Assembly (NCBI GenBank): GCA_948473115.1
Contig: CAOKWI010000016.1
Coordinates: 1 to 64,000 of the forward strand
Source: an uncultured Lachnospiraceae bacterium
Lineage (GTDB): Bacteria; Bacillota; Clostridia; Lachnospirales; Lachnospiraceae
DNA length: 64,000 bases
Direction of reading: 5' to 3'
In this document: positions 3,793 through 60,332 of the stretch, piece by piece
Layout of the letters: each line of letters opens with the position of its first letter
Numbering within the stretch: position 1 is the stretch's first letter
The notes under the pieces: generated by a model
Database searches by the model: none
Told to the model about the DNA's origin: nothing
The model's input: the letters and a program-made list of their open reading frames with translations, nothing else
Position numbers and translations under genes: made by a program

Positions 3793-3815
3793 CGGTGCGC
3801 AAGGCGAAAAGATTT

Positions 3816-4010: not shown

Positions 4011-4123
4011 ACAGATTTTCTAAGGCATCCCAAAACGATGCCGAAGGCGGCCTGGCGGGAAGTGCAGAAACGGAACTGGAATAACAACAGCTTTGTAACG
4101 GAACGGGAATAGGAGGTTATACT

Positions 4124-10994: not shown

Positions 10995-11062
10995 AGTTTC
11001 TGGAAGGTCCTTTGGGGAAGAAGGCTGCTGCAAAGGGCGGCAGACAGTGTGTGAGGTAGGAA

Positions 11063-25874: not shown

Positions 25875-26795
25875 TTGAAGATTGATGTGATCATTCCGGT
25901 GTACAGACCGGGCAGGGAGTTGTTTTCGCTGCTGGATCAGCTGGAGTGTCAGACGGTTCCCGTGCAGGATATCATTCTTATGAACACGGAGAAGAAATAT
26001 TTTGAACGGCTGGTACGGAATGTGGATTTTGCGGGCAGGTATCCCAATGTAAAGGTATGGCATATCCTGAAAAAGGAATTTGACCATGGAGGAACCAGGC
26101 ACCAGGGAGTGCTTCATTCGAAGGCGGATATCTTCCTTACCATGACGCAGGATGCGCTTCCCGCAGATAACCGTCTGGTGGAAGAGCTGACAAAGCGTCT
26201 GTCGGGGCAGGTGGCCGTGGCGTATGCCAGGCAGCTTCCCCTGGTGGACTGCAGGGAGACGGAAAGGGCCTCCAGGGAATTTAATTACCCGCCGGTCTCT
26301 TCCGTGAAAACCGCAGCGGATCTGGAAAGGCTGGGGGTAAAGACCTTTTTCTGTTCCAATGTGTGTGCCGCCTACAGAAGGGATATTTACAACGAATTAG
26401 GGGGATTTATCCGGCATACCATATTTAATGAGGATATGATCTATGCCGCGGGCGCGGTAAAGGCCGGGTACGGTATTGCTTACGAGGCGCAGGCCAGGGT
26501 CTTTCACTCCCATAATTATACAAATATGCAGCAGCTGCGGCGAAACTTCGATCTGGGTGTGTCTCAGGCAGACCACCCGGAAGTTTTTGCCGGAATTCCC
26601 TCGGAATCGGAGGGGAAAAAGCTGGTCAGGGAGACATACTTCTATTTGAGGGACAGGAAAAGGACATATCTGTTTCCTGTCTTCTGCATACAGTGCGGTT
26701 TTAAGTACACGGGATATCTGCTGGGAAAACACTATAAAAGTCTGCCCCGGAAATGGATTCTGAGGATTACAATGAACAGGGAATACTGGTCATAG
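25875..26795 (+). CDS. Family 2 glycosyltransferase, rhamnosyltransferase-like
   Basis: The 306-residue GT2 enzyme starts KIDVIIPVYRPGRELFSLL and has KEFDHGGTRHQGV, FLTMTQDALP (DxD-like position), VAVAYARQLP and FNEDMIYAAGAVKAGY. The EFDHGGTRH and MTQDA patterns are those of RfbF-type rhamnosyltransferases that pair with dTDP-rhamnose loci. The start is TTG at 25875, 18 bp after the LCP gene stop, with GGGCGGTAGCG upstream. Confidence 0.88.
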   Translation: MKIDVIIPVYRPGRELFSLLDQLECQTVPVQDIILMNTEKKYFERLVRNVDFAGRYPNVKVWHILKKEFDHGGTRHQGVLHSKADIFLTMTQDALPADNRLVEELTKRLSGQVAVAYARQLPLVDCRETERASREFNYPPVSSVKTAADLERLGVKTFFCSNVCAAYRRDIYNELGGFIRHTIFNEDMIYAAGAVKAGYGIAYEAQARVFHSHNYTNMQQLRRNFDLGVSQADHPEVFAGIPSESEGKKLVRETYFYLRDRKRTYLFPVFCIQCGFKYTGYLLGKHYKSLPRKWILRITMNREYWS

Positions 26796-26886
26796 CGGTT
26801 CCGGAGCGGTCTTGCCGGACATCAGTGAGAGTGCAGGACACGGAGACAGAGTAGGAACGAGACAGAACTGGAACGGAGATGATATT

Positions 26887-28713
26887 ATGTGTGGTATTGT
26901 GGGTTATATCGGGAACGATCAGGCGGCGCCGATCATTCTGGAGGGATTGTCGAAACTGGAGTACCGGGGGTATGACTCCGCCGGAATGGCGGTGTTCAAC
27001 GGGAAGACGATCCAGACCAGAAAGGCCATAGGGCGGCTGAAGGTGCTGGAAAACCTGACAAGGGGCGGTGAGACCATGCCCGGCTGCTCGGGCATCGGGC
27101 ACACCAGATGGGCCACCCACGGCGCGCCCAGCGACAGGAACGCCCATCCCCATACCAATGCGGCGGGGACAATCGCCGTGGTGCACAACGGGATCATTGA
27201 AAATTACATACCATTAAAGAAGAAGATGCAGGATAAGGGGTACGAGTTCAGATCCGAGACAGATACAGAGGTGCTGGCTCATCTCATAGACTATTATTAC
27301 AGGGGGAATCCCCTGGAGACGATCACCAAGGTGCTCCACCGTGTGGAGGGTTCCTATGCCCTGGGAATCATGTTTGCGGATCATCCGGACGTGGTGTACG
27401 CGGCGAGGAAGGATAGTCCCCTGATCGTGGGACAGAGTGACAGAGGCTGCTTTATTGCTTCCGATGTCCCCGCCATCCTGAAATATACCAGGACGGTATA
27501 TTACCTGGATAATCAGGAGGTGGCGGAGCTAAAGAAGGATGGGCTGCGCTTCTATTCCGTGGATGAGGAGGAGCTTACCAAGGAATCCACCAACATTGAC
27601 TGGGATGCGGATGCGGCGGAGAAGTCCGGATATGAGCATTTCATGTTAAAGGAGATGTATGAACAGCCTAAGACGATCACGGATACGATCTCTCCCAGGA
27701 TCAAGGGAAATGATATTGTGATCGATGAATTGAACATGTCGGACGAGGAACTGGGAGCCATACGGAAGATCCATATCGTGGCCTGCGGTTCCGCGTACCA
27801 TGCGGGCGTTACCGGCAAATATGTCCTGGAGGGCCTGGCACGCGTACCTGTGGAAGTGGATGTGGCAAGTGAATTTCGTTACAGGGATCCCATTCTGGGG
27901 AAGGAGGACATGGTCATTGTCATCAGCCAGTCCGGCGAGACGGCGGATACCCTGGCAGCCCTGCGGGAATCCAAGGCCAGGGGGCAGAAGGTGCTGGGCA
28001 TTGTCAATGTGGTGGGAAGTTCCATCGCCAGAGAGGCGGATGCCTGCCTGTACACCTGGGCGGGACCTGAGATCGCAGTGGCTACCACCAAGGCATACAG
28101 CGCCCAGCTCACAGCCCTCTACATGTTGGCGATGAAGCTGGGAAAGGTCAGGGGATTATTGGACGAAAAGACTTTTTCGGAGCTTCTCAGGGAGCTTCGC
28201 TGTCTGCCCGACCAGATTGAACTGCTGCTGGGCCAGAAGGAGAAGATCCAGCACTTTGCGAACCGCTATCTGGGCGCAAGGGACATTTTCTTTATTGGCA
28301 GGGGAATTGACTATGCGATCTCCCTGGAGGGATCCCTGAAGCTGAAGGAGATTTCCTACATCCATTCGGAGGCATATGCCGCAGGTGAGCTCAAGCACGG
28401 CACCATCTCCCTGATAGAGGACGGCACCCTGGTAGTGGCGCTCTCCACCCAGCCGGCCCTGTTCCAGAAGACCATCAGCAATATCGTGGAAGTCAAGGCA
28501 AGAGGCGCCTTTGTCATGGCGGTTACCAGCGAACAGAATAAGGCCATTGAAAAGGCTTCCGACTATGTGATCTATATTCCGGATAGCAGCCCTTACTTTG
28601 CAAACTCCCTGGCCATCATTCCTTTGCAGCTGTTTGCCTATTATGTGGCGGTGGGCAGAGGCTGCGATGTGGATAAGCCCAGGAACCTTGCAAAATCCGT
28701 GACGGTGGAATAA
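26887..28713 (+). CDS. glmS: Glutamine-fructose-6-phosphate aminotransferase (isomerising)
   Basis: It makes glucosamine-6-phosphate from fructose-6-phosphate and glutamine, the first committed step to UDP-GlcNAc for wall and surface polymers. The start is ATG at 26887, because the mature enzyme needs Cys at position 2 as the glutaminase nucleophile (MCGIVGYIG). The frame upstream is open but not coding. The glutaminase half includes EYRGYDSAG and HTRWATHG; two SIS domains follow (ACGSAYHAG, ISQSGETADT); the end KSVTVE is typical. Length is 608 residues. No glmS-ribozyme-like sequence was recognised in the short upstream gap. Confidence 0.96.
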   Translation: MCGIVGYIGNDQAAPIILEGLSKLEYRGYDSAGMAVFNGKTIQTRKAIGRLKVLENLTRGGETMPGCSGIGHTRWATHGAPSDRNAHPHTNAAGTIAVVHNGIIENYIPLKKKMQDKGYEFRSETDTEVLAHLIDYYYRGNPLETITKVLHRVEGSYALGIMFADHPDVVYAARKDSPLIVGQSDRGCFIASDVPAILKYTRTVYYLDNQEVAELKKDGLRFYSVDEEELTKESTNIDWDADAAEKSGYEHFMLKEMYEQPKTITDTISPRIKGNDIVIDELNMSDEELGAIRKIHIVACGSAYHAGVTGKYVLEGLARVPVEVDVASEFRYRDPILGKEDMVIVISQSGETADTLAALRESKARGQKVLGIVNVVGSSIAREADACLYTWAGPEIAVATTKAYSAQLTALYMLAMKLGKVRGLLDEKTFSELLRELRCLPDQIELLLGQKEKIQHFANRYLGARDIFFIGRGIDYAISLEGSLKLKEISYIHSEAYAAGELKHGTISLIEDGTLVVALSTQPALFQKTISNIVEVKARGAFVMAVTSEQNKAIEKASDYVIYIPDSSPYFANSLAIIPLQLFAYYVAVGRGCDVDKPRNLAKSVTVE

Positions 28714-28720
28714 ATTTTTT

Positions 28721-28915
28721 CTACCTATACGGTTGCAATCCAATGACCTGGCTGTATGCCATTTATGGCAATGCAGGCGGGGCGTTGGATTAGTAACTTA
28801 CTTCCAAATGAACAAAACGCGGATGCGTAAGCGGACGCAGGAGCGCGTAAGCGCGGGTTTTGTGAATGTGGAAGTCAGGTTGGATGCTCCTTGGAGCGTC
28901 CAACCGTACAGGTGG
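28721..28915 (+). mobile_element. Non-coding inverted-repeat element, family A, copy 2
   Basis: Also 195 bp, with ends CTACCTATACGGTTG and CAACCGTACAGGTGG. The 8 bases on either side (AATTTTTT at 28713-28720 and 28916-28923) are identical, though low in complexity. It shares the three-hairpin layout of copy 1. Its last stem reads GGTTGGATGCTCC against GGAGCGTCCAACC. It sits between glmS and htrA. Confidence 0.85.
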
Positions 28916-29009
28916 AATTTTTTTCACAACTACTTCATATGAAAAACACAATTTCGACACAAATAGGGATTATACTTTCATCATAGAACTGACAAGGAGG
29001 TAAACAGTC

Positions 29010-30350
29010 ATGAATGAAAATGAAAATCCCTATTTTGATTATACAGCATGTCCGGTGGAAGTGCTTGAGGAGAAAGCACAGGCAGCGGCGTCACAGGCAG
29101 TGAAGCCTCAGCCCGCGGAGCCGGGACTTCGGGAAGAGATGAAAGAGACGAAGAAATCCGGGGGTGGTTTCCGCAAGGCTGCTTTCAGTGCAGGTCTGGG
29201 ACTTTGCTTCGGACTTTGCGCAGGCGCAGGTTTCTACGGGGTAAAGCTGGGAACGGAATATTTTGCGAAAGAGGAGATTTCCGAACTGGAGAGCGGTGCA
29301 GCGGGCGATGTATTGACAATACCTGCAAACGGGCAGGCGGAGGCAACCCATATCACCTACGTCCATGACGATGTCTCCGATATGGTGGAGGAGGTCATGC
29401 CGGCAATGGTATCTATTGTCAGCAATTATACCAGCACCGGTTACAATATATGGGGGCAGGTTTACAGCAAACAGAACGCTTCCAGCGGTTCCGGTATTAT
29501 TGTGGAAGAAAATGCGGAGGAGCTTCTGATCGTATCCAACAACCATGTGGTAAACGGGGCGGAGGCACTGGAAATCACCTTTATTGATGGGAGTACGGCT
29601 CAGGCTGTCATAAAGGGTGTGGATACGGATATGGATCTGGCGGTGGTGGCTGTTCCGCTGGAAAACCTCAGCCCGGAGACCAGGGAGGCCATTACGGTAG
29701 CCACGTTGGGAGACAGCGGCAGCCTGAAGCTGGGTGAGCCTGTGGTCGCCATCGGGAACGCGCTGGGTATCGGCCAGTCCGTCACAGACGGCATTGTCAG
29801 CGCCCTGGACCGCGAGGTTACCATGGAGGACGGTTCCACAGGAACCTTTATCCAGACAAACGCGGAGATCAATGAAGGCAATTCCGGCGGTGCGCTGTTA
29901 AACATAAGAGGCGAGGTCGTCGGCATAAATTCCAATAAGATTGCCGGCACCGCAGTGGAGGGCATGGGTTATGCCATCCCCATCAGTTCTGCCAGTCCTA
30001 TTATCGCGGATCTGATGAAAGACAGGGTACCGGAGGAGGAAACCGGATATATAGGCATCACCATGCAGGAGATCACGGACCAGGTGATCCAGATGTATCA
30101 TATGCCTCAGGGCGTCTTCGTCTATGATGTGGAGGAGGGTTCTCCGGCACAGGCGGCGGGCATTATGAAACAGGATATTATTGTGAAGTTTGACGACAGA
30201 AAAATCACTTCCGCCAACGGCCTGAAGAGCGCGCTGCAGTATTATATGGCGGGTGATACGGCGGCAGTTACCGTGATGCGGCAGGTGGACGGTGAATACG
30301 TCTCCCTGGAGCTGGAGATCACCCTGGGTGAGCGGCCGGCACAAAAGTAA
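29010..30350 (+). CDS. HtrA/DegP-like membrane-anchored serine protease
   Basis: A surface quality-control protease of 446 residues. A hydrophilic 55-residue cytoplasmic stretch is followed by a membrane segment (about 56-76), a trypsin-like domain and one PDZ domain (about 345-440). The catalytic triad can be read as His in SNNHVV (near 178), Asp in TDMDLAVV (near 209) and Ser in NEGNSGGALL (near 292). The ribosome site is AAGGAGGT. A TATACT at 28971 may be a -10, without a clear -35. A strong terminator follows. Confidence 0.93.
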   Translation: MNENENPYFDYTACPVEVLEEKAQAAASQAVKPQPAEPGLREEMKETKKSGGGFRKAAFSAGLGLCFGLCAGAGFYGVKLGTEYFAKEEISELESGAAGDVLTIPANGQAEATHITYVHDDVSDMVEEVMPAMVSIVSNYTSTGYNIWGQVYSKQNASSGSGIIVEENAEELLIVSNNHVVNGAEALEITFIDGSTAQAVIKGVDTDMDLAVVAVPLENLSPETREAITVATLGDSGSLKLGEPVVAIGNALGIGQSVTDGIVSALDREVTMEDGSTGTFIQTNAEINEGNSGGALLNIRGEVVGINSNKIAGTAVEGMGYAIPISSASPIIADLMKDRVPEEETGYIGITMQEITDQVIQMYHMPQGVFVYDVEEGSPAQAAGIMKQDIIVKFDDRKITSANGLKSALQYYMAGDTAAVTVMRQVDGEYVSLELEITLGERPAQK

Positions 30351-30391
30351 GACGAAAAATCTCATAACTTTGATCCTCATAAATATCACAG

Positions 30392-30424
30392 GAAAACGGC
30401 TGCATGATGAGTGCAGCCGTTTTC
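30392..30424 (+). terminator. Intrinsic terminator after htrA
   Basis: A 13-bp perfect stem (GAAAACGGCTGCA with TGCAGCCGTTTTC) around a 7-base loop ends in TTTT. The A-run and T-run on the two sides could make it work in both directions. Confidence 0.88.
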
Positions 30425-30545
30425 ACGTGGGTACTGTTGGCTGTGTATCAACCCCCGCGCCGTCCCTTTTGCCTCACATTCTCAAGCTGCCTGGCATCAC
30501 CGGGGCTGGACTGTGATGTGACCTCGGTTATAGTGTTCATAAAAT

Positions 30546-30574
30546 TTGACAATAACAATTATTGATTGTACAAT
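30546..30574 (+). promoter_or_regulatory. Promoter of the ATPase-AIPR cassette
   Basis: A consensus -35 TTGACA (30546-30551) and -10 TACAAT (30569-30574) are separated by exactly 17 bp. The coding start is 29 bp further on. The setting just after a terminator shows that the cassette has its own transcription unit. Confidence 0.85.
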
Positions 30575-30602
30575 AAATCCTGCAAGGTGATGAACGTGGC
30601 GT

Positions 30603-31907
30603 ATGGGGCAATTGGGGCATTTAGTGTGGCGTATGGATTATAATATAGAAAAGAGGATTCCTGTGGGTATAAGAATAGATGTCAGGAAATTTGCAAAAAT
30701 AGAGAAGGCTTCCATAAAAACAGGTGATTTCTCTCTGTTCGTAGGTGATAATAACAGCGGAAAAACTTTGATGATGGAACTCGTGTATGGGATTATGGAC
30801 ACAATATCCAACTGGAATGCGGAAGTCGGTTGTGCCAAAATCACGGAAAGTGAGGGGATTTCTTATATATCGTTTTCTGATAAGTGGTTTGCTGAATTGG
30901 AAAACAATATTAACAGTTACCTGAGGGACAATAAAAGGAACTTTCTTCTGGAATGCTTTTCAATGGAAATCCCTGTGGAGGAAGTAGCGATACATTTTGA
31001 GACCGCGGAGGAAGTGTTTTATGTCGGGACAATCGCAGAAATGGCATATTTGGAAAAGGAATATGCTGATGGCAGCAGGGTAAATATTGCCAGTGATGTG
31101 GCGGGGACGGTGGAGGAGATGAAATTACAGCTTGCCAGATACGCCCTGCTGGATATGCTGGGACTGCCTGTGGGAAAAAGACAGCTGTTTCTTCCGGCAT
31201 CACGGGCCGGTCTGCAGATGCTCTATAGGAGTTTTTTTGTAAACAGGCAGGGAAAGTCCGGAATGACTCTGCCGATTTACGAATATCTGACATTTCTGCA
31301 GACCTATTCGCCCAGAACGCAGTTTGATGAAAATGAGACAGATTTAATGGAATTTGTGGACAGGGAACTGTTGGGCGGAAAGATTGAATACCGGAACGAT
31401 GTGTTTATGTATCGGGAAGGTAATTGCTATGTCCCTCTGAACATGGCTTCGTCGATGATCCATGAATTATCGCCCTTCAGCAGTGTGCTGAAATCGGAGG
31501 GCAGCTATGGATATTTGTATTATGATGAGGTGGAAAACAGTATACATCCTATTAAGCAGGGAAGCATGGCAAAGGCATTGATGAGATACTGCAATCTTGG
31601 CAATAAGATCATACTTTCAACCCACAGCGATACTCTGGCGGGGAAAATTAATAATTTAATTTTAGTGTCGAGAATGAAAAATGTAATGCGCAGAAATGAC
31701 ATACTGGAAAAGCTGGATTGGAGTATGCGGGATATGCTTCAACCGGAAAAAACAGTAAGGATCTATGAATTCAAAAAGGATGAAAAAGGCAGTGTGGTCG
31801 TCGAGGAATTGGAATTTTTTGATTATCCAAAGATAGGTTATGACTTTGGGAGGTTTAATCAAAATATCGATATGCTTTACGAGGAATCAAACTGCATTAT
31901 GGGATAG
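30603..31907 (+). CDS. AAA-type ATPase of a putative defence cassette
   Basis: This 434-residue cytoplasmic protein has an N-terminal Walker A, GDNNSGKT (residues 48-55), with a Walker B LYYDEVENSIHP near 304-315 and a switch LSTHSD near 340. This is the layout of ABC/SMC-like AAA_15/AAA_21 ATPases found in OLD-type and abortive-infection systems. No TOPRIM nuclease domain follows; about 85 residues with no recognised motif close the protein. It is the first gene of a three-gene unit ending with an AIPR protein. A second possible start is ATG at 30633. The codons are more AT-rich than in the polysaccharide genes. Confidence 0.82.
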   Translation: MGQLGHLVWRMDYNIEKRIPVGIRIDVRKFAKIEKASIKTGDFSLFVGDNNSGKTLMMELVYGIMDTISNWNAEVGCAKITESEGISYISFSDKWFAELENNINSYLRDNKRNFLLECFSMEIPVEEVAIHFETAEEVFYVGTIAEMAYLEKEYADGSRVNIASDVAGTVEEMKLQLARYALLDMLGLPVGKRQLFLPASRAGLQMLYRSFFVNRQGKSGMTLPIYEYLTFLQTYSPRTQFDENETDLMEFVDRELLGGKIEYRNDVFMYREGNCYVPLNMASSMIHELSPFSSVLKSEGSYGYLYYDEVENSIHPIKQGSMAKALMRYCNLGNKIILSTHSDTLAGKINNLILVSRMKNVMRRNDILEKLDWSMRDMLQPEKTVRIYEFKKDEKGSVVVEELEFFDYPKIGYDFGRFNQNIDMLYEESNCIMG

Positions 31908-31911
31908 ACAG

Positions 31912-32595
31912 ATGAAAGCAAAAAAGCTGGAACAGGGAATGGGTTATGAAAAGAGAAAGATGTATTGGATCGACTGCCCGATGGACATTGCCGTGGAAGA
32001 GAAACAGGACAACGGTACGTTGGACAGGACTATCCTGCATTATGCGGTCAGGGACGGGGACAAGGCTTATTTCAGTGAGGAATATCTGCCCGAAGGAATA
32101 TCGAAAGACGGGGTAAAAATGCCGGATATTACCGCTATTTTGGAAAGCAGCGCCGAGAGAAGGGTAAAATGGTATATTTATGATATGAAGGATACAGTGA
32201 TAAATGCGAAAACGGCGTTGAAGCTTTGTAACCAGTGGCATAGCGGGATTGAACATATTGAAAGCCGGTATTTAAACGATCTGGACGGATACCTTGTGGA
32301 TGGTTCACTGGGAGTGATATCCAGATTTTGGAGCAGGGAAATGCTTCAAAAAGAGAAGGTTATCTACGAGGAAAAATTGAATCTGGCAGGCAGCAGCAAT
32401 TTGCTTACGGCCAGGAAGAGCAGACCCAAGCAGGTCGAATATAAACAGAGGGTTAAGGCCGTTCAGTTTATTTTGGATGGGATATTTGTTGATGATAATG
32501 AAATGGGCGGAAGGACATCCTACGATATCCACCATGTCTGTATGACTACGACGGACAAAATTACATATATGGCTGAGATGGATATCAAATTATAG
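31912..32595 (+). CDS. Hypothetical protein of the ATPase-AIPR cassette
   Basis: No family was recognised. The 228-residue product is hydrophilic, without membrane segments or a signal peptide. It opens with a basic stretch and contains a HYAVRDGDKAYF strand-like region, a central KWYIYDMKDTVINAKTAL, a basic region (TARKSRPKQVEYKQRVKAVQ) near residue 175 and a C-terminal DIHHVCMTTTDKITYMAEMD. The start at 31912 lies 5 bp after the ATPase stop. The frame reaches back to 31840, which would overlap the ATPase gene by 68 bp. Position between the ATPase and AIPR genes suggests a partner or specificity subunit; this is inference. Confidence 0.7.
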   Translation: MKAKKLEQGMGYEKRKMYWIDCPMDIAVEEKQDNGTLDRTILHYAVRDGDKAYFSEEYLPEGISKDGVKMPDITAILESSAERRVKWYIYDMKDTVINAKTALKLCNQWHSGIEHIESRYLNDLDGYLVDGSLGVISRFWSREMLQKEKVIYEEKLNLAGSSNLLTARKSRPKQVEYKQRVKAVQFILDGIFVDDNEMGGRTSYDIHHVCMTTTDKITYMAEMDIKL

Positions 32596-32616
32596 AGGAC
32601 AGCGGGAGGATATGGT

Positions 32617-34506
32617 ATGTTTGAGAATCCGATACTAAACGCATTGTTTGTTGATTACGTTAAAGAGAATGACCTGGAGGATAACAGTAGTCTGGATAAT
32701 GAGAGAAGGTATATTGACTATATCTATTTTTCCCAGATCCAGCCCGACAGGTTAGACAGGGATTTTGACCTGTTAAACCAGATATGTGATGAAATCCCTG
32801 AGAGGATGGGGCTGATCGGCATTGCTATAACAATGAATGGGCAGCTGCTTTCCACAAGGACGGATATTGATGATATCCTGCAGAAGGATGGGCAAGGTCG
32901 GTTTGAGGTATATATTTTAGCCTATAAGGAGAAGTTTTCCACTGATGAGCTGATATACGCAGTTTATCAGGAAAGACAGGAGGGATACAGTTTTTCCGAA
33001 ATAATCGGCTATTTCCAAACACAGAAAATTGTGTCCAGGTGGGAGGAACTTCCCGCCATAAATCTTATTTTTGTGGCGGAGGAACAGGCGGAAACCCAAA
33101 ATATAAAAAGCAAAGAGTATACCGTCAGTATCCAGCAGATCGATGAGAAGAAGCTGCATGACATAGCAAAAGCAAACAAGAATGAGTATGAAGCCACGCT
33201 TGAGTATCAGGATTCCATTGAATTTGGGAAATTAGAGGATGTAGGGCAGGTGTATGTAGTGCTTTGCAGTGCGGACAGCCTGATCAGGATCCTGACAAAT
33301 GACGATGGGTTGATCCGGGCGAACATGTTTGATGACAATGTCAGGGATTACCAGGGGGATACGGATGTAAACCAGGAGATGGAGGCGACCTTGTGGAACA
33401 ATCCTGTGAATTTTGTCCTGTATAACAACGGGATCACGATTGTATGTGACAGGCTGGAGTCCAAAAGCAGGGCATTGATCATCAAGAATCCCCAGATTGT
33501 AAATGGCTGCCAGACATGTAATTCACTTTATAAGGTAAAGAGGAAGGGAAGCGACCTGTCCCAGGTCCAGGTGATTGTAAAGGTGATTGAAGCCACCAAA
33601 CTGGAAGTGGCACAGGGAATCGTGAAGGGCACGAACAGGCAGAACATTGTTTATGAGGAGGCTTTTGAGACTATCCGTCAGTACCATAAGGAACTGGAGG
33701 ATTTCTTTAATATCATGCAGACGGAAGGCTTTTCCAAGGTATATTACGAGAGGCGCTCCAAACAGTATGCAAGAGACAATGCGATAAAGCCGTATCAGAA
33801 AGTCAGCCTCCGGGTATTAATCCAAAGCATGGTGGCGATGTACATGAACCATGTTGAGACCTCGCACAGGCATGAATCAAAGCTCATTATTGATTACCGG
33901 GACAAGCTTTTTGTGGAGGGGCAGTCCTATTATCCCTATTATGTGGCGGCATTGCTGGCATCGAACCTGGAGTGTATCATGAAGCAGGATTACAGTCTTA
34001 AGGATATGAGGCCATACAAGATGCACCTGCTGTTCCTGATCCAGGAATTGAGCATGGGACCGGCGCCGGATATAGACGATAAAAAGAGAATAGAGGAGTA
34101 TTGCAAAAAACTGTTGAACCTGTTGGGTGGGACAGAATATAGACAGGTGGTTTTGCGGGCGGCAGGCAGATTCCGGCAAATCATGCGTCAGTGGGTTGAT
34201 GCAAAGGGATCGGATTACAGATATGCCATAAAGGATAATCCGGAATTTAAAGATTTCATGTTAAAAGAACTGCGGGGGAGCAACGCTGTGGAAGTAAATT
34301 CCAACGTATATACCGGCAGGGTCATGACCGTCACCACGGACAGGCATGGCAATCTGTTTGGATTTATTGCGCATAAGCCGGAAAATGTTTATTTCAACGA
34401 GCTGGATAACCCGAATATGGATATTTCCTATGAGGGGAAAGAGGTATCGTTCCGGCTGACTGAAAAAGCCGGAAAAATCAGGGGAATTAACGTAAGAATT
34501 TTATGA
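32617..34506 (+). CDS. AIPR-family protein (abortive infection phage resistance)
   Basis: The 629-residue protein carries the core pattern of the AIPR family: FVLYNNGITIVCDR near residue 267, then NPQIVNGCQTCNSLY near 290-305, and VKGTNRQNIVYEEAFETI near 345. The N-terminal 200 residues are less typical and the last 90 look beta-rich. Family members occur in phage-resistance loci, but the activity is not established. It begins 21 bp after the preceding gene with AGCGGGAGG as ribosome site and is the third gene of the cassette driven from 30546. Confidence 0.85.
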   Translation: MFENPILNALFVDYVKENDLEDNSSLDNERRYIDYIYFSQIQPDRLDRDFDLLNQICDEIPERMGLIGIAITMNGQLLSTRTDIDDILQKDGQGRFEVYILAYKEKFSTDELIYAVYQERQEGYSFSEIIGYFQTQKIVSRWEELPAINLIFVAEEQAETQNIKSKEYTVSIQQIDEKKLHDIAKANKNEYEATLEYQDSIEFGKLEDVGQVYVVLCSADSLIRILTNDDGLIRANMFDDNVRDYQGDTDVNQEMEATLWNNPVNFVLYNNGITIVCDRLESKSRALIIKNPQIVNGCQTCNSLYKVKRKGSDLSQVQVIVKVIEATKLEVAQGIVKGTNRQNIVYEEAFETIRQYHKELEDFFNIMQTEGFSKVYYERRSKQYARDNAIKPYQKVSLRVLIQSMVAMYMNHVETSHRHESKLIIDYRDKLFVEGQSYYPYYVAALLASNLECIMKQDYSLKDMRPYKMHLLFLIQELSMGPAPDIDDKKRIEEYCKKLLNLLGGTEYRQVVLRAAGRFRQIMRQWVDAKGSDYRYAIKDNPEFKDFMLKELRGSNAVEVNSNVYTGRVMTVTTDRHGNLFGFIAHKPENVYFNELDNPNMDISYEGKEVSFRLTEKAGKIRGINVRIL

Positions 34507-34519
34507 CAGGCGGATTGGA

Positions 34520-36052
34520 ATGAGACAATTTTACGAAAAAAACAAAAAGGCCTTTTATATTGCACTGGGGTATACAGTACTGTGCTTTGGGTTCATGCTC
34601 ACACATTACGCGCCCAATATTGACGAGGAGACCTGGCTGCTGAATGAAACCGACAGTATCATGTGGCTTTTGCAGAACAGGTATACGGTGTATCTGTATG
34701 ACCTGGTTTTCACGGAGCATGGGCGTTTTGTGCCCTTTTTTACCAGCGCGACAGCCATTGGGCTGTGGAATCTGTCCGGCTTTCTGTTCGCCTGTGCTTT
34801 TTTTGACTTTGAGGAAAAGGACAGACTGTGGCTCCGCACGCTGCTGCTGTGCTATTACAGTTCGATCCCGTTCTGTGTGGGTGAAGCTTTCTCGTTCTCC
34901 ATGCTGATTATTCCGGAAAGCTTCGGGATGGTTCTGACGGCGGCAGCGTTTCTTCTGACCGTCGGGAAATGCCGTCTGAAAGGCAGATGGAATGAGGTAT
35001 GCATCATCCTGTTTCTGGTGACGGCCCTGGGATGCTACCAGGCGCTGATCGGTGTGTATGTAACGGCAGTGGCCGGGTGGTGCCTGTGCCGGTTCCTGCA
35101 GGATAAAGAAATAAAGCCGGGGCTGGTACGGGGGATCCTGCTCACCCTGGTTTCCGTCGGCTTATACTATGTCATAAACCTGATCATCGGGAAATGCTGC
35201 GGCACAGCCGCCTATCTCTCGGAAAATTATATCGGCTGGACCAACGGTGAAAGCATTTTCTTTAATCTCTTCATGGCGTTGGCAAATGTGGGACGGGTAT
35301 CCCTGGCGGTTCCCGTCAGGGATGTTGCCGTATACGGCGGCGTTACGCTTCGCGTGGTGACGCTCCTGTTCATCCTTTTCAGTATCGTGACATTTTTCAG
35401 GAAAAAGGGGGCGGCGAAAAAAGCAGGAGTACTGCTGCTTACACTGGGGCTTGTGATGGCGCCCTTCGCCCTCTATATTGCCCTTGGCACATATAAGACC
35501 CACGGACGTATGATGATCGCGCTGTCTCTCTCCGGCATGATCCAGCTGCTGCTGATCTTCAATGGCATTACCAGGAATGCTTTAGAGAAAGCGGCAGCGG
35601 TCGTTGTACTGGGAATCCTGATGATGAATGCGTCCAATATGAACCGGATATACTATTATACTTATCTGGTCTACCAGCAGGACAGAACCATGGCCTGCCA
35701 GATCATCCAGGATCTGAAACGGGCGGGCTGTGATTATCAGAATAAGGCGGTAGTCTTTATCGGGAAAGGGACGCAGGAGGATATCGGAATCGAGACTTCC
35801 TGTACCCTGGGCGCTTCTTTCTTTGAATGGGACGGCGGGAATATCAGGCGAATGATCGACGTCATAAAACTGGAAGGCTGTGTGCTGCATATGCCCTCGG
35901 CGGCGCAGATCATGGAGGGGCTGGCGCTGTCGGGGAACATGAAGGAATGGCCGCAGAAGGGCAGCATGAAGGAAACGGATACGAGCATCGTGATTTACCT
36001 GTCGGAGCCGGATGCAGAGTGGTTTCAGACCAATCTGGGAGGAATGCCCTGA
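34520..36052 (+). CDS. GtrII-like membrane glucosyltransferase
   Basis: A 510-residue protein with about ten to eleven membrane helices. The N-terminal region (YAPNIDEETWLLNETD, then EHGRFVPFFTS) matches the GtrII pattern, in which acidic residues of the first extracytoplasmic loop act with a lipid-linked glucosyl donor. Shigella phage GtrII adds glucose to O-antigen and changes phage sensitivity. The gene starts 13 bp after the AIPR gene and may be read from the same promoter. It might instead belong with the surface polysaccharide genes. Confidence 0.75.
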   Translation: MRQFYEKNKKAFYIALGYTVLCFGFMLTHYAPNIDEETWLLNETDSIMWLLQNRYTVYLYDLVFTEHGRFVPFFTSATAIGLWNLSGFLFACAFFDFEEKDRLWLRTLLLCYYSSIPFCVGEAFSFSMLIIPESFGMVLTAAAFLLTVGKCRLKGRWNEVCIILFLVTALGCYQALIGVYVTAVAGWCLCRFLQDKEIKPGLVRGILLTLVSVGLYYVINLIIGKCCGTAAYLSENYIGWTNGESIFFNLFMALANVGRVSLAVPVRDVAVYGGVTLRVVTLLFILFSIVTFFRKKGAAKKAGVLLLTLGLVMAPFALYIALGTYKTHGRMMIALSLSGMIQLLLIFNGITRNALEKAAAVVVLGILMMNASNMNRIYYYTYLVYQQDRTMACQIIQDLKRAGCDYQNKAVVFIGKGTQEDIGIETSCTLGASFFEWDGGNIRRMIDVIKLEGCVLHMPSAAQIMEGLALSGNMKEWPQKGSMKETDTSIVIYLSEPDAEWFQTNLGGMP

Positions 36053-36058
36053 ACCTCG

Positions 36059-36277
36059 TCACCTGTGCGGTTGGATACTCCAAGGAGCATCCAACCTGAC
36101 TTCCACATTCACAAAACCCGCGCTTATGCGCTTCTGCGTCTGCTAACGCATCCGCGTTTTGTTCATAAAGAGGGGTGTTGGCACACCCTCTTGAAAGTGG
36201 GTTGCTAATCCAATGCTCCGCCGGCATTGCCATAAATGGCATGCCGACAGGTCATTGGATTGCAACCACACAGTTGA
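36059..36277 (-). mobile_element. Non-coding inverted-repeat element, family A, copy 3 (inverted)
   Basis: The copy reads in the opposite direction to those at 3816 and 28721. Ends are TCACCTGTGCGGTTG and CAACCACACAGTTGA. It is 219 bp because of an extra internal hairpin (AAGAGGGGTGT with ACACCCTCTT at about 36168-36192). No target duplication remains. It fills most of the gap between the GtrII-like gene and flgM. Confidence 0.8.
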
Positions 36278-36296
36278 AAATATTTCTGGATTCCTC

Positions 36297-36323
36297 TAAA
36301 GTATTCTTCCAACCTGTCGATAA
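36297..36323 (+). promoter_or_regulatory. Sigma-D type promoter of the flgM operon
   Basis: TAAA (36297-36300), a 15-bp spacer and GTCGATAA (36316-36323) match the sigma-D/FliA flagellar consensus TAAA-N15-GCCGATAA in all but one base of the -10. It lies 52 bp before the flgM start. Confidence 0.85.
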
Positions 36324-36375
36324 ATAATACATGAAAGGTCAAGGAATATGAGACTTGCAGAAAGGAGGAACTCAT

Positions 36376-36654
36376 ATGCGTATTGAAGCGTATGGTCAGG
36401 TTCAGCAGATATATAAACCCAAGCAGACGACAAGGAACCAGCAGGTCGGTGCATCGTCCCACGGTTCTGACTGCTTACAGATCAGTACGGCGGGAAGGGA
36501 TTTTCAGAGTGCGAAATCTGCGGTGGCAGCAGTTCCGGATGTGAGGGAGGATCTAGTGTCATCTATCAAGGCCAGGATAGACAACGGAACTTATCAGGTG
36601 GATACTTCGGCGTTTGCCGAGAAGCTGCTGACAAAAATGAACGAAATGAGGTAG
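36376..36654 (+). CDS. flgM: Anti-sigma-D factor FlgM
   Basis: FlgM holds the flagellar sigma factor inactive until the hook is complete. The 92-residue product has the typical disordered N-terminal half and a C-terminal FlgM domain (SAVAAVPDVREDLVSSIKAR, then IDNGTYQVD and FAEKLL). The start ATG at 36376 follows AAAGGAGGAA; an in-frame ATG at 36355 lies before that site and is rejected. It is the first gene of the late flagellar operon and is itself under a sigma-D type promoter. Confidence 0.92.
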   Translation: MRIEAYGQVQQIYKPKQTTRNQQVGASSHGSDCLQISTAGRDFQSAKSAVAAVPDVREDLVSSIKARIDNGTYQVDTSAFAEKLLTKMNEMR

Positions 36655-36662
36655 GAAGTCCC

Positions 36663-37181
36663 GTGGCTAGTTTAATGGAGAACCTGATTGATGTTCTGGA
36701 TCAGGAATGTACTGAATATGAGGGGCTTTTGATTCTTTCCCAGAAAAAGACGCCGATCATAGCGAGCGGCAATCTGGAAGATCTGCAAAAAATCACGGAT
36801 GATGAACAGAATGTGGTAATTCGTATCAATCAATTGGAAAAGAAGCGGATTGAAGTTACGAAAGATATCGCCAATGTGTTGAACAGGGATGTTGACAGTT
36901 TGAAACTTACAAATCTGATTGATATGCTTGCCGGCAGGCCTGCGGAGCAGGAAAAGCTGGCGGTGGCGCATGACCGGCTGCAGACAGTCGTTCACAGCCT
37001 GCAGCGTATCAACGAGCAAAACAGGGAATTGCTGACAAATGCATTGGAGATGGTAGAGTTTGAGATGACTCTGCTTCAATCCATGAAAGCGGCGCCTGAG
37101 ACGGCTAACTACAATAGGGGTGCTTACTCTGCGGGAAGTACCATGGGAGTGCCCAGCAGGGGATTTGACGCGAAGCAATAA
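36663..37181 (+). CDS. flgN: FlgN-type flagellar export chaperone
   Basis: FlgN keeps the hook-junction proteins FlgK and FlgL unfolded for export. The 172-residue product is almost entirely helical (LMENLIDVLDQECTEYEGLLILSQKK, in part, then long charged heptads) with a low-complexity tail. It starts with GTG at 36663, 8 bp after flgM; ATG at 36675 is an alternative. Position before flgK agrees with the assignment; sequence alone is only suggestive because the family is poorly conserved. Confidence 0.85.
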   Translation: MASLMENLIDVLDQECTEYEGLLILSQKKTPIIASGNLEDLQKITDDEQNVVIRINQLEKKRIEVTKDIANVLNRDVDSLKLTNLIDMLAGRPAEQEKLAVAHDRLQTVVHSLQRINEQNRELLTNALEMVEFEMTLLQSMKAAPETANYNRGAYSAGSTMGVPSRGFDAKQ

Positions 37182-37199
37182 TTTTTTGAGGTGATTGAT

Positions 37200-39023
37200 A
37201 TGCCATTAATGGGAAGTTTATATATAGGGGCATCCGGATTACAAAACAGTCAAAATGCGCTGAACACCACAGCGCATAATCTTTCTAACGTGGATACTCC
37301 GGGATACACAAGGCAGCAGGTGCAGCTGTCTACCAGGAGTTATCTGAAACTTTCAGTCGATCCCAAATCTGTAAACAACAAACAGACAGGTTTGGGTGTC
37401 TATTATTCCCGTGTAAAATATGTGAGAGATTACTTTCTGGATCAGACATACCGCAAGGAATCCGGGCGCAGTATGTTTTATGAGGTATCCACGGGAGTGT
37501 TGGAGGAAATAGAGAGTCAGCTGGGCGAATTGAACGGCGAGGCGTTCCAGACCACCATAGAGGATCTCTGGACAGCCATAGAAGAACTGGCCAAGGATCC
37601 TGCAAGCTCCATTACCCAGGGGGTTCTGGTGCAGAGATCGTCGGAATTTATAGAGAGGGCAGCGGCCGTATATGACGGCCTTGCTTCCTATCAGGATAAC
37701 CTGAACACGCAGATCAAGCAGCAGATCGATAAGATCAACATGTACGGGCGGCAGCTGCTGGCTCTGAATGACAGCATCAGGGCAATTGAGAGCGGCGGGA
37801 TTGAACAGGCCAACGACCTGCAGGATGCCAGAAATACGATACTGGATGAACTTTCCCAGCTTGTGAGCATGTCTTACAGCTATGACCAGGAAGGCAATGT
37901 GGAGGTCAAGATCGAAGGCGTGGATTTCGTGAAGGGCAGCATGTGCTATGAGATTGGCCTGGATGTCGATGAGACCACCGGATTTTATACGCCTTTCTGG
38001 CCTACAAATGCGAAATATTACATCGATGAAAACGGTGTGAAGGTATATAATATTGACGGCGCTGAGGTATTTGACCTGGAACGCCCGATCTCATCCGACC
38101 TGGACACGGATATCGGCGGACTGAGGGCGATGCTCTATGCGAGAGGGGACCACAGGGCGGATTACTCGGATCTGGATGCAAATGTCTGCACACAGAGGAA
38201 GCTTGACGCGCTGGGGATTACCAGGGAAGAATATTTAAGGAATCCCAAGGTTTACGGACAGAAGTATTATGATTCCATGGTTTCTAATTCCGTGCTGATG
38301 AATATCCAGGGCGAGTTTGACCAGATGGTTCACAGCATTATCTCGAAAATGAACCAGATCCTTGAGAAAGGGGCTGGCGTCCAGACGGGAAGCCTTACCT
38401 ATGTGGATCCCGACAGTGGTGCCACTAAGACAGGAAACGTTCGGTATTGCGAGGTGGATCCTGACGGTTACCTGAGGGACAGTGACGGCATCCCCTTCCA
38501 GATGTTCACCAAGATCACCACGGATGAGTATACCAGGGTCAAAGGAACGGACGGTAAGGAATACTATATTTTTAACGAAGAAAACGGCATGGAACCTGAC
38601 AGTCTGTATACCACAAAGAACCTGCAGATCAATCCCCTGCTGATGCAGGAGCCCTCCAGGCTGGGCTTCCGGAAGGAGGACGGTTCGGAGGATCTGCAGA
38701 TCGCGGAGGAAATGAAAGCCGCTTTCCAGGAAAAGGGTTATACCCTGAATCCGAATGTGACAAAGCGGACTAACTTCATTGATTACTATATGGATCTGGT
38801 AAACCAGGTGGGCGGCAACGGGTTTATCTACAGGGGGATTTACGAGAACCAGCAGAGCGCCCTGGAATCCATTGACAGCTCCCGCCAGCAGGTAGTGGGT
38901 GTATCCTCCGATGAGGAACTGTCCAATATGATCAAGTTTCAGAACGCGTATAACGCATCCAGCCGGTACATTAATGTGATCAGCGAGATGCTGGAACATA
39001 TCATCAATACACTAGGGGTATAG
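37200..39023 (+). CDS. flgK: Hook-associated protein 1 (FlgK)
   Basis: FlgK forms the first hook-filament junction ring. The 607 residues begin with the D0 rod/hook signature (GSLYIGASGLQNSQNALNTT, then NLSNVDTPGYTRQ) and end with the matching helix (NMIKFQNAYNASSRYINVIS). The middle is the variable D2-D3 region. The start ATG at 37200 is spaced well from GAGGTGAT; a TTG at 37191 is rejected. Structured DNA follows, then a second flgK-like gene. Confidence 0.94.
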   Translation: MPLMGSLYIGASGLQNSQNALNTTAHNLSNVDTPGYTRQQVQLSTRSYLKLSVDPKSVNNKQTGLGVYYSRVKYVRDYFLDQTYRKESGRSMFYEVSTGVLEEIESQLGELNGEAFQTTIEDLWTAIEELAKDPASSITQGVLVQRSSEFIERAAAVYDGLASYQDNLNTQIKQQIDKINMYGRQLLALNDSIRAIESGGIEQANDLQDARNTILDELSQLVSMSYSYDQEGNVEVKIEGVDFVKGSMCYEIGLDVDETTGFYTPFWPTNAKYYIDENGVKVYNIDGAEVFDLERPISSDLDTDIGGLRAMLYARGDHRADYSDLDANVCTQRKLDALGITREEYLRNPKVYGQKYYDSMVSNSVLMNIQGEFDQMVHSIISKMNQILEKGAGVQTGSLTYVDPDSGATKTGNVRYCEVDPDGYLRDSDGIPFQMFTKITTDEYTRVKGTDGKEYYIFNEENGMEPDSLYTTKNLQINPLLMQEPSRLGFRKEDGSEDLQIAEEMKAAFQEKGYTLNPNVTKRTNFIDYYMDLVNQVGGNGFIYRGIYENQQSALESIDSSRQQVVGVSSDEELSNMIKFQNAYNASSRYINVISEMLEHIINTLGV

Positions 39024-39135
39024 CGTGAGAAGATGTTCTAACCGCCTACAGCGGTTTTTGCTCACAGCAAAGGCTGTCTCGCAAAGAACATCTAAGTCTC
39101 ACGCCGGAAAACGCTAAAGACAGGCGTTTTCCCGG
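39023..39135 (+). other. Nested inverted repeats between the two flgK genes
   Basis: An outer stem joins GCGTGAGA and AGATGTTCT (39023-39039) to AGAACATCT and TCTCACGC (39085-39104) with a 3-base bulge. Inside lies CCGC-CTACA-GCGG followed by TTTTT, a short terminator-like hairpin (39042-39059). A second hairpin, GGAAAACGC with GCGTTTTCC, spans about 39105-39133. Together they could attenuate or process the flgK message. Confidence 0.6.
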
Positions 39136-39164
39136 ATTGTATATTACAATAGGGAGGGAAAGAG

Positions 39165-41165
39165 ATGCCTTCACAATTTTTTGGATTAAATATTGCATAT
39201 ACGGGTCTGCTGGCAAGCAATGCAGCGCTGAACACCACCAATAACAACATTGCGAATGTACAGACAAAGGGCTACAGCAGGCAGGAGGTAAATCAGGTGG
39301 CGGCCAGTGCACTCCGGGTATTCCAGACTTACGGCTGCGCCGGGGCCGGTGTGGAGACCCTGTCCATCGAGCGTATCAGGGACAGCTTCTATGACACGAA
39401 ATACTGGAACAATAATGCCAAAGTAGGGGAATATGGTATGAAAGAGTACTATATGAAGCAGATAGAGACCTACTTTGACGACAATGGCAAGAACGCCGGG
39501 TTTAAGACCGTGTTTGACCAGCTGATGATCAGCGGACTGCAGGCCTTGAAGGACAATCCCAATGACGCAACCACCAAGACCCAGTTTATAGGTTATGCAG
39601 GAGCACTGGCGGAATATTTCAACGGTCTTGCAGGCAATCTGGAAAATGTGCAGAAGGATGTAAATGCGGAGATCAAAGTCAAGGTGGATGAGATCAATTC
39701 CATCGCCGGACAGATCGCAACCCTGAATAAGCAGATTAATACCATTGAACTGACAGGAGTGACCGCCAACGAACTGCGTGACAGGCGGGAACTGCTGGTG
39801 GATCAGCTTTCCAAGATCGTGGATGTGAAGATCACGGAATATCCCATTGTGGATTTGAATAATCCCGAGCGTGAGACGGGGGCAAACCGCTATATTGTGA
39901 AGATCGCCGGCGGACAGATATTGGTGGACGGCAATGAGTACAACGGCCTGGAATGCAGGGCAAGGGAACTTTATGAGAAGGTTAACCAGACGGATGCCGA
40001 CGGCCTGTATGATGTGTACTGGGAGAACGGGCAGAAGTTCAGCCTGTACAACGCGGCAATGGGCGGCGCATTGCAGGGACTGATCCAGATGAGGGACGGC
40101 AATAACGGCGAGAATTTTATCGGCGAGATTACGAAGACGGGTGAGTACTGGCCGACGGATGCGGCTGGCAAGCCGACCGGCGCGGTACATGACACGGTTA
40201 CCATCCAGGTGGGGAAGGCTTACCTGCAGGATCTGAATAAATGTAATCTGTCGGATTCCGGCGGTATCATCGATCTGGGCAACCAGGAATTTTACTATGA
40301 TTCCTGGAGCTGCGAGATCAGCTATGACAATAATGGTAAGGCTGTTTACTCTTATACCTTCGTTTTGTCAGACAGTACGAAGAATGATTCCAGGCTGACC
40401 AACGACAGGGTTGGGAAGGTGGCCTCCATAGGTGCAAGCCTTTCCTATCAGGGTATTCCATATTATATGAAGCAGATGAACGAGTGGGTGCGTACCTTTT
40501 CCCAGAAGTTCAATGATATCCTGACAAGAGGATATGATTCCAACAATCAGCACGGGGCGCCGCTGTTCACCGCCAACAAGGCGACAGATGATGCCCAGTA
40601 CGAGTTTGGTTATGGCATGACCTCAACCGCGGAGATAGGACCGAATACGCAGTATTGGGGCGGCAGCCGGTATGATACCTTCAGCTACGAAGCGTATCTT
40701 GCCAATGGCGGCAAACCGCTGACCATAACAATGAATCAGGACAGCTACTACTGGATGACGGCCATGAATTTTGACATCAGTACTGCTGTGCAGGACGATC
40801 CCAGGCGTCTTTCCAACAGATATGACAATGCGGATGGCGTGGAGCAGAATGATCTTCTGACAGACCTGAAGAATCTGGCTACCGATAAAGATAAGATGAC
40901 CTTCCGCGGCGCTTCCGCTTCGGAATTCCTGCAGTGTATCCTGGCGGATGTGACGTTGAACGCTTCCAGGGCCAACATGTTCAGCAGGAGTTTCCAGGAT
41001 ATCGCGAATACCATTGACAACCAGAGAATATCGATCTCCGGTGTGGATGAGGATGAGGAAGCGGTTAACCTGGTGAAATACCAGAACGGATATAACCTGG
41101 CATCCAAGATGATCCAGACTTTGACAGAGATTTATGACAGGCTGATCCTGCAGACCGGCGTCTAA
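39165..41165 (+). CDS. flgK: Second FlgK-like hook-associated protein
   Basis: The 666-residue product has the same end signatures as FlgK: GLNIAYTGLLASNAALNTT and NNIANVQTKGYSRQEV at the N terminus, and NLVKYQNGYNLASKMIQTLTE at the C terminus. The middle is unrelated to the gene at 37200 by eye, although both keep the coiled segment before it (INSIAGQIATLNKQINTIE, then ELRDRRELLVDQLS). It follows GGGAGGG and is followed by flgL after 20 bp. Tandem flgK paralogues suggest two junction proteins or a divided role. Confidence 0.9.
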   Translation: MPSQFFGLNIAYTGLLASNAALNTTNNNIANVQTKGYSRQEVNQVAASALRVFQTYGCAGAGVETLSIERIRDSFYDTKYWNNNAKVGEYGMKEYYMKQIETYFDDNGKNAGFKTVFDQLMISGLQALKDNPNDATTKTQFIGYAGALAEYFNGLAGNLENVQKDVNAEIKVKVDEINSIAGQIATLNKQINTIELTGVTANELRDRRELLVDQLSKIVDVKITEYPIVDLNNPERETGANRYIVKIAGGQILVDGNEYNGLECRARELYEKVNQTDADGLYDVYWENGQKFSLYNAAMGGALQGLIQMRDGNNGENFIGEITKTGEYWPTDAAGKPTGAVHDTVTIQVGKAYLQDLNKCNLSDSGGIIDLGNQEFYYDSWSCEISYDNNGKAVYSYTFVLSDSTKNDSRLTNDRVGKVASIGASLSYQGIPYYMKQMNEWVRTFSQKFNDILTRGYDSNNQHGAPLFTANKATDDAQYEFGYGMTSTAEIGPNTQYWGGSRYDTFSYEAYLANGGKPLTITMNQDSYYWMTAMNFDISTAVQDDPRRLSNRYDNADGVEQNDLLTDLKNLATDKDKMTFRGASASEFLQCILADVTLNASRANMFSRSFQDIANTIDNQRISISGVDEDEEAVNLVKYQNGYNLASKMIQTLTEIYDRLILQTGV

Positions 41166-56769: not shown

Positions 56770-56774
56770 GTGCC

Positions 56775-57452
56775 ATGGGAACATTTGGAAAAGAAAATCG
56801 GGATATCATGGCGCAAAATATCCAGCAGCAGATCAGGCAGCTGATCCTGCTTTCCTGTGAAGCTCTCAAAAAGGATACGCTGGACAAAGGTGTCTGGATT
56901 GCAAATGATGAAGGGGCCATCACGTACCGGCTGGTGGAATTTTATTTGAACAACAATGAATTTCGCAGAAAAAATAATCTGAGTTTACTGGTGCGTTTTC
57001 AAATTGAGACTCCGGTAAATTTCCAGCCGATGAACAACAACTATCTTGGAAGAGCAGATATCAGGATTGTGGGAATGAATTATCTGCAAAACGGAACCTC
57101 CCTGGGACTGATCGAGTGTAAACGTCTTGATGGAGGCGCGGTTTTAAAACGGGAATATGTGAAAGAGGGTATTGACAGATTCACAGGTGTGATAGCAGGC
57201 TGCGTAAAATATCCGCGCTCAAATTGGGACATGATGATAGGATATCAGGTCGCGTTAATGCAGTTTGATGTCATGCTGAAGGAACTGAACCAATATTTGA
57301 AAAAGAAGATGAAAAGTGCCGTCATGAAAGAACTTACATTTTGTAAATCCGGTAATGACTGGACGGAATGTGTCAGTACCTTTCGGTGTATAGACGGAAA
57401 AGAGCGACCGATAGGGCATTTGTTTTATGACTTTGCCGGGATCATACAATAA
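56775..57452 (+). CDS. PD-(D/E)XK nuclease-like partner of the methyltransferase
   Basis: About 225 residues. The pattern YLGRADIRIVG ... LGLIECKRLD (near residues 95-120) fits a PD-(D/E)XK core with Asp and Glu-x-Lys. The N-terminal part is helical and the C-terminal GHLFYDFAG is unusual. A GTG at 56766 overlaps the methyltransferase stop; ATG at 56775 is the conservative choice. Together with the upstream gene this would make a two-gene restriction-modification or related defence unit. Nuclease activity is inferred from the motif only. Confidence 0.72.
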   Translation: MGTFGKENRDIMAQNIQQQIRQLILLSCEALKKDTLDKGVWIANDEGAITYRLVEFYLNNNEFRRKNNLSLLVRFQIETPVNFQPMNNNYLGRADIRIVGMNYLQNGTSLGLIECKRLDGGAVLKREYVKEGIDRFTGVIAGCVKYPRSNWDMMIGYQVALMQFDVMLKELNQYLKKKMKSAVMKELTFCKSGNDWTECVSTFRCIDGKERPIGHLFYDFAGIIQ

Positions 57453-60292: not shown

Positions 60293-60332
60293 CAGGGACG
60301 CAGGGAATCAGAAATGATTCCCTGCGTCCCTG
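60293..60332. terminator. Perfect 18-bp hairpin between convergent genes
   Basis: CAGGGACGCAGGGAATCA pairs without mismatch with its complement across a GAAA loop. It lies between the small gene (ends 60278) and the recombinase gene, whose last codons and stop (60308-60310) fall in the stem. No long U-run follows on either strand. A shared terminator is likely; a recombination or protein site is possible. Confidence 0.65.

Follow-up and report, generated by a model that had tools for sequence, protein, structure and literature searches.

A recurrent cassette of ATPase, predicted nuclease and AIPR genes in Lachnospiraceae as a candidate abortive-infection module

Immunity systems that pair an ATPase with a nuclease are already known. 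According to the accessible portions of the sources, to which all statements on published systems given here are limited, PD-T4-4 of E. coli consists of two genes, for an ATPase and a PD-(D/E)xK nuclease (PMC12137116, PMC9519451, PMC10952713), and WonAB, from Vibrio cholerae WASA-1, of an ABC ATPase without Toprim domain followed by a small PD-(D/E)xK nuclease (PMC12137116). Activation of WonAB blocks translation, with tRNA or rRNA as the suggested target, and its authors likened it to PD-T4-4 and described a larger uncharacterised family in which ATPase sensors are paired with nucleases, as in 'OLD-ABC ATPase + novel REase' operons (PMC12137116). Here we analyse three intact co-directional genes, A, B and C, in the first 64,000 nucleotides of contig CAOKWI010000016.1 (the window), which is part of the 4.44 Mb draft genome of an uncultured Lachnospiraceae bacterium. 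We consider it fairly probable that this cassette is an abortive-infection module of the PD-T4-4/WonAB kind with an AIPR protein as third component. An earlier note, made from the DNA letters, had proposed it as a candidate undescribed defence system; the conserved and mobile three-gene set bears this out in part, but an ATPase-nuclease pair of this kind is not new. A literature search, with preprints and most subscription papers beyond reach, found no description of the A-B-C set; it is the constant presence of an AIPR gene as third member that we did not find there.

The likeness to PD-T4-4 lies in the two first genes. The best PADLOC model for A, among 60 families at E<=1, is PD-T4-4_A (7.5e-30, the match being split into two stretches), B directly follows A as PD-T4-4_B does, and the E...D...(D/E)xK residues of B align with those of a nuclease group that includes three PD-T4-4_B proteins. 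However, the match of A is far below those of the clear members L076 (6.4e-185) and L078 (1.9e-99), B matches no PADLOC family at E<=1, PD-T4-4_B included, and the cassette has a fixed AIPR third gene as opposed to the two genes described for PD-T4-4. The PD-T4-4_B model PDLC04034 matched none of six genomes, including that of the window, and its control matched nowhere either. Compared by description only, WonAB also shows a Toprim-less ABC ATPase followed by a small PD-(D/E)xK nuclease, here a predicted one; an AIPR gene, in contrast, is not mentioned for it in the accessible part of PMC12137116. As that paper states that WonAB resembles PD-T4-4, the cassette would be related to WonAB as well.

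The three genes recur as a unit. The order A-B-C was found in seven genomes, at mostly unrelated sites: six of the genus (window, G001, G005, G047, G053 and G548) and G173 outside it. The co-occurrence that the earlier note wanted tabulated is thus present elsewhere. A profile search of the genus with gene C gave 12 matches in 11 of 138 genomes, which include, besides the complete sets, A with a truncated B and C in G521, A and C in G499, where B and the start of C are deleted, a match interrupted by the contig end in G019, a decayed remnant with pieces of ATPase and AIPR genes in G047 (L073, contig 2, 6406-7276), and other AIPR genes in G526 and G527, with neither A nor B in the stretch read. 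Moreover, homologues lie on identically sized contigs, a proxy for co-location, in 22 (B-A), 24 (B-C) and 21 (A-C) cases, the lists compared being 83 homologues of B and, for A and C, the top 120 out of 416 and 4062 respectively; a jitter null gave means of 0.6, 0.4 and 0.9 and maxima of 5, 4 and 6. The divergence of the three proteins is also correlated over 13 sets (0.966 for A-B, 0.995 for A-C and 0.958 for the remaining pair), with none of 2000 permutations as high; these sets are seven loci plus six of nine size-matched contigs, three having been dropped as ambiguous, truncated or duplicate. In a tree of 21 ATPases (the incomplete G126 was excluded), all nine loci with AIPR fall into a single group, supported at 87/89 and by 88% of bootstraps; adjoining it are the ATPase-nuclease pairs of G361 and G045, which show no AIPR gene in the stretch read. 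Since a single AIPR-bearing clade stands beside AIPR-less pairs, the simplest history, favoured although not proven by these sequences, would be that AIPR was recruited once onto an ATPase-nuclease pair.

By its sequence motifs, gene A encodes an ABC ATPase of the OLD type in which no Toprim domain was detected, in agreement with what had been noted. Scans of A, B and C against Pfam at E<=1 gave AAA_15 (3.6e-12) for A, and 30 homologues share as invariant residues G28, N30, S32-T35, D288-E289, S319 and H321-D323, among them the Walker A motif, the D288-E289 pair and an S-x-H-S-D loop. The PADLOC models that come after PD-T4-4_A are PDC-M47A, PDC-M56A and AriA, and a PDB sequence search with A returned OLD, PtuA and other chains weakly (1e-4 to 1e-2). 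The AAA_15/OLD-type ATPase domain is a feature in common with PARIS (AriA/AriB), Gabija, OLD and Septu; unlike these, neither Toprim nor HNH was matched in A, B or C by the Pfam, PADLOC and NCBIfam scans.

Gene B, which the earlier note regarded as an unrecognised protein of 228 residues, is one residue shorter and probably encodes a diverged PD-(D/E)xK nuclease. A search of 5.8 billion proteins at E<=0.001 gave 84 homologues, B itself included. In 19 diverse ones, three of them remote (L046, L029 and L014), E30, E57, Y58, D72, K93 and Q108 never vary and D91 varies once, to E (P0037). Over a set of 73 homologues of close to moderate relatedness, E57, D72, K93 and Q108 are invariant and E30 and D91 are kept in at least 90%. 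The motif E...D...(D/E)xK...Q is the signature of the PD-(D/E)xK nuclease superfamily, and B has it. Its position directly after the ATPase supports the same reading, as related ATPases have a nuclease there. An ATPase search of 397 genomes of the family gave 13 matches in 12 of them: two belong to A-B-C sets (window and G173), two to A-B pairs (G045 and G361), in seven cases an intact gene of 200-222 aa with D...(D/E)xK comes next, and in one, in G406, a 130-aa open reading frame (ORF) with the ExK part; after the match on contig 26 of G375 no such small gene was found. The seven family nucleases matched no PADLOC nuclease model. They were aligned with three nucleases from a Vibrio phage, Bernardetia and a Serratia plasmid, which all match PD-T4-4_B in PADLOC and come from the only loci opened among 3 phage and 34 plasmid ATPase records. 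In this alignment of ten, D75 and K94 are invariant and E30 nearly so, and over 81 columns E30, D72, D91 and K93 of the B profile fall on E30, D75, E92 and K94. The profile score was 25.1; none of 200 column shuffles came up to it, the highest being 22.3, and the reversed profile scored 11.7. When only the three PD-T4-4_B proteins are used, the direct profile link to B is not significant, and the seven family nucleases are linked to these three better than B is (71% profile probability). PDB sequence searches with the other nucleases pooled gave chance matches only. Signature, position and profile alignment together make a nuclease probable, not proven.

Searches for B in plasmid, phage and viral-contig collections found none at the sensitivities used, and among 392 genomes belonging to the order only the window's own B was matched; this last search can miss homologues, since it included G045, whose B was found among the ORFs at 3e-17. 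G499 has lost B by deletion, G521 has a truncated B, and the remnant on contig 2 of G047 lacks it. These losses were considered as a sign of toxicity, an idea that was dropped, for the three cases come from draft genomes and one is general decay.

Gene C was correctly named an AIPR protein: it matches Pfam AIPR (PF10592) at 1.4e-42 over residues 238-429 (146.9 bits against a cut-off of 25) and PADLOC AbiU at 1.7e-74. Its C-terminal 60 residues or so are probably a cold-shock/OB domain, to judge from weak similarities: PF00313 CSD is the second most frequent Pfam family of the C homologues (10 of 27 at E<=1, best 0.0014), PADLOC CSD_V is matched at 0.025, and the sole match of a PDB search is the cold-shock protein 2lss (0.43); in the window's own protein PF00313 gave no match at E<=1. 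AIPR genes are known companions of restriction-modification (R-M) operons (PMC2292703, PMC3506569). Gene C thus resembles the described AbiU/AIPR proteins by its matches and differs from them in its partners, which are not R-M genes but an ATPase of the OLD type and a putative nuclease, and in its C-terminal tail, probably of the cold-shock kind. A PD-(D/E)xK protein and AIPR are also combined with an ATPase in MZA and MZA-like systems (PMC9523054); however, gene C is below MzaE grade, with 53.6 bits against a cut-off of 1050. AIPR genes recur in defence loci, and the available text differs on the activity of their products: a HEPN-bearing toxin is one view, while the related DndB has been read as a transcriptional regulator, a nuclease or an NTPase of the ParB superfamily.

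We propose that the ABC ATPase, as a dimer, would control nuclease B and activate it once infection is sensed. Activated B would then cut a nucleic acid essential to the cell, so that phage production stops, as reported for WonAB. Gene C, probably recruited once onto the A-B pair, would act as third component, and its cold-shock/OB-like tail suggests that it may bind RNA or single-stranded DNA (ssDNA); it could either guide or license B or be a second effector. A bolder form of this proposal, which is possible although doubtful, makes AIPR a constitutive subunit whose OB tail presents RNA or ssDNA while its core processes nucleotide or nucleic acid, all three parts having to agree before the nuclease fires. 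If this were true, an AIPR protein would acquire a defined biochemical role and the cassette would be a separate type of OLD-ABC-ATPase immunity. In either case the cassette has an AIPR protein in fixed company with a sensor ATPase and a putative nuclease, and the AIPR-less relatives in G045 and G361 offer a natural comparison, with and without AIPR, for its contribution.

Several results weigh against this interpretation. B has no Pfam or PADLOC family and only a chance-level NCBIfam match, no significant match to a known nuclease family and only chance matches in PDB sequence searches; hhalign itself gives its alignment with the ten nucleases a probability of no more than 6%, and when B is compared with just the seven nucleases from the Lachnospiraceae family, two of 200 shuffles score higher. 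The assignment of the cold-shock tail is a weak one. When only the nine closest sets are compared, the correlations are lower (0.80, 0.85 and 0.65), so that much of the co-divergence signal comes from deep splits, and the tree program warned of long branches. Recognised defence genes adjoin the cassette at only two of seven separate sites, neighbours having been scanned in part, and the window's own site adjoins housekeeping and flagellar genes.

It is also conceivable, though unlikely, that A and B by themselves form an entire two-gene system of the PD-T4-4/WonAB kind, AIPR being a solitary defence gene that shares the operon, and that each is dispensable to the other. The A-B pairs of G045 (L014) and G361 (L029) are what would be expected in that case, as are AIPR genes with neither A nor B alongside (L074 and L075), including those at the three plasmid loci opened of 89 records, L077 from its ORFs and L079 and L080 from annotation tables. 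However, all nine ATPases of the AIPR-bearing clade adjoin C, C tracks A more closely than B does, and even in the decayed copies L071 and L073 the pieces of A and C are still neighbours. Less likely again is that B, instead of being a nuclease, serves the ATPase as adaptor or inhibits it, with C as the effector. AIPR proteins are said in the accessible part of PMC3506569 to bear an N-terminal HEPN toxin domain, and B, besides lacking a family and aligning with other nucleases at low profile probability, diverges fastest among close copies (58-81% identity to the window, compared with 75-96% for A). Nevertheless, the invariance of B centres on the nuclease signature, with D and E interchanging where they should, the place that B occupies is that of the nuclease gene in related systems, and HEPN is not among the 19 Pfam families to which 27 C relatives gave matches at E<=1, a scan that a diverged HEPN could escape.

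Some other conflict or housekeeping role, such as plasmid exclusion, maintenance or control of neighbouring surface or flagellar genes, is improbable. The gtrII-like gene lies closely 3' of the cassette both in the window and in G001, its nearest relative, where the cassette precedes the same gtrII, flgM, flgN and flgK (93-99% identical); the htrA of G001 (98% identical) lies on another contig, 0.5 kb from its end, which makes this side consistent, the junction being unseen. However, none of the window's flanking genes that were tested, gtrII and flagellar genes among them, was found at the other copies, and two of these adjoin defence genes, an association proposed for checking and thus found in some genomes: L011 is next to a PglZ C-terminal piece, a DrmD/BrxH-like SNF2 helicase and a TmtA-like sacsin protein, and L028 to a C5 DNA methyltransferase. 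The copy in G548 (L046) adjoins an ankyrin protein matching the defence candidate PDC-M72A. No defence gene was recognised at L012, of which two neighbours were scanned with PADLOC, or by eye at L013 and L045; one L012 neighbour gave a weak candidate match (PDC-S60, 3.8e-5). The seven separate sites are those of window/G001, G005, G047, G053, G173, G521 and G548, and the cassette is mobile, standing at different sites in different genomes. Finally, a chance operon without joint function, for which speaks only the modest number of complete copies directly seen, is very improbable, being already contradicted by the co-location, site and co-divergence results.

Table. Coordinates in the window of the cassette and of its upstream boundary
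Feature	Position	Strand	Remarks
Hairpin after htrA	30392..30424	+	Likely htrA terminator; upstream boundary, outside the cassette
Promoter TTGACA-N17-TACAAT	30546..30574	+	11/12 consensus
Gene A, OLD-type ABC ATPase (by sequence), 414 aa from GTG	30663..31907	+	Pfam AAA_15, PADLOC PD-T4-4_A
Gene B, predicted PD-(D/E)xK nuclease, 227 aa	31912..32595	+	E30, E57, D72, D91-x-K93, Q108
Gene C, AIPR/AbiU protein, 629 aa	32617..34506	+	Pfam AIPR, PADLOC AbiU
Probable cold-shock/OB-like C-terminal region of gene C, residues 568-628	34318..34500	+	Weak but concordant matches

The layout of the locus (Table) is largely as first described. The three genes are tightly spaced, with gaps of 4 and 21 bases. 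The ORF of A extends from ATG 30603 to 31907, those of B and C being as tabulated; the GTG is the most likely start, since 414 aa is the length of most close homologues, and AGAGG precedes it at 30652-30656. The genes were rightly called AT-rich: their GC contents are 0.418, 0.436 and 0.447, compared with 0.496 for the window, and they rank third, fifth and sixth lowest among the 42 window ORFs of at least 150 aa. The near-consensus promoter was confirmed as top scorer of 10 sites in its stretch, where the number of promoter-like sites is at chance level (9.6 in shuffles). In three of seven other copies, L011, L012 and the distant L071, A is preceded by an 11/12 promoter with identical hexamers and spacing; L028 has a 10/12 promoter and L013, L045 and L046 nothing better than 9/12. 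In L011 and L012 the spacer and the promoter flanks align with the window too. That the promoter directly follows a terminator holds insofar as a strong hairpin stands after htrA (RNA fold -28 kcal/mol, z -6.17, none of 200 shuffles as good), but the hairpin is missing from the computed list of terminator-like sites.

In the window the cassette sits between htrA (29010-30350) and the gtrII-like gene (34520-36052), with glmS beyond htrA and flagellar genes beyond gtrII; the names htrA, flgM, flgN and flgK were assigned by reading. In G038 (L051) htrA and flgM are 1.5 kb apart with neither cassette nor gtrII, and a GH43 glycosidase gene (10710-11711) takes their place, which marks this as a variable spot. 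The cassette had also been described as bracketed by family-A elements. Two copies inverted to each other are indeed present (28713-28930 and 36060-36285), but they enclose htrA and gtrII as well and are no part of the cassette. Family A is a repeat of about 0.2 kb that is scattered over the genome, where BLAST gave 46 matches to it; the window has a third copy at 3813-4011, and G001 has no copy between gtrII and flgM or between glmS and htrA; therefore these elements say nothing about the cassette, and as its borders they were rejected. A uniform-density figure of 0.0002 for copies on both sides, computed post hoc, is outweighed by the comparison with G001. An Rfam scan of 26500-39500 at gathering scores, a stretch holding two family-A copies, gave no match.

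Some further observations concern other loci. A solitary AbiU/AIPR gene on a Phocaeicola massiliensis plasmid (L077, 5001-7049) encodes a protein with 28% identity over 95% of gene C and, by eye, a similar-looking C-terminal tail; no ATPase or nuclease was recognised alongside. At L074 (6745-10255) an AIPR gene is followed by a gene for a protein with weak TIR and HD matches, possibly a different AIPR defence locus. The L073 remnant stands among several similar flagellin-like genes, identified as such by reading. Proteins on a contig of the same size as that of the G521 copy (L045, 21991 bases) are labelled Candidatus Gastranaerophilales by one source, but the genome is placed in the window's genus, so that this public bin is probably mixed or wrongly labelled. 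Another locus with a possible defence role lies about 20 kb from the cassette, at 53863-57452, where an AT-rich ORF of 968 aa with N6_Mtase/Eco57I domains, presumably type IIG R-M-like, is followed by a 228-aa ORF without Pfam match; near it, at 60308-60919 on the minus strand, is a serine recombinase gene (Resolvase, 1.5e-28).

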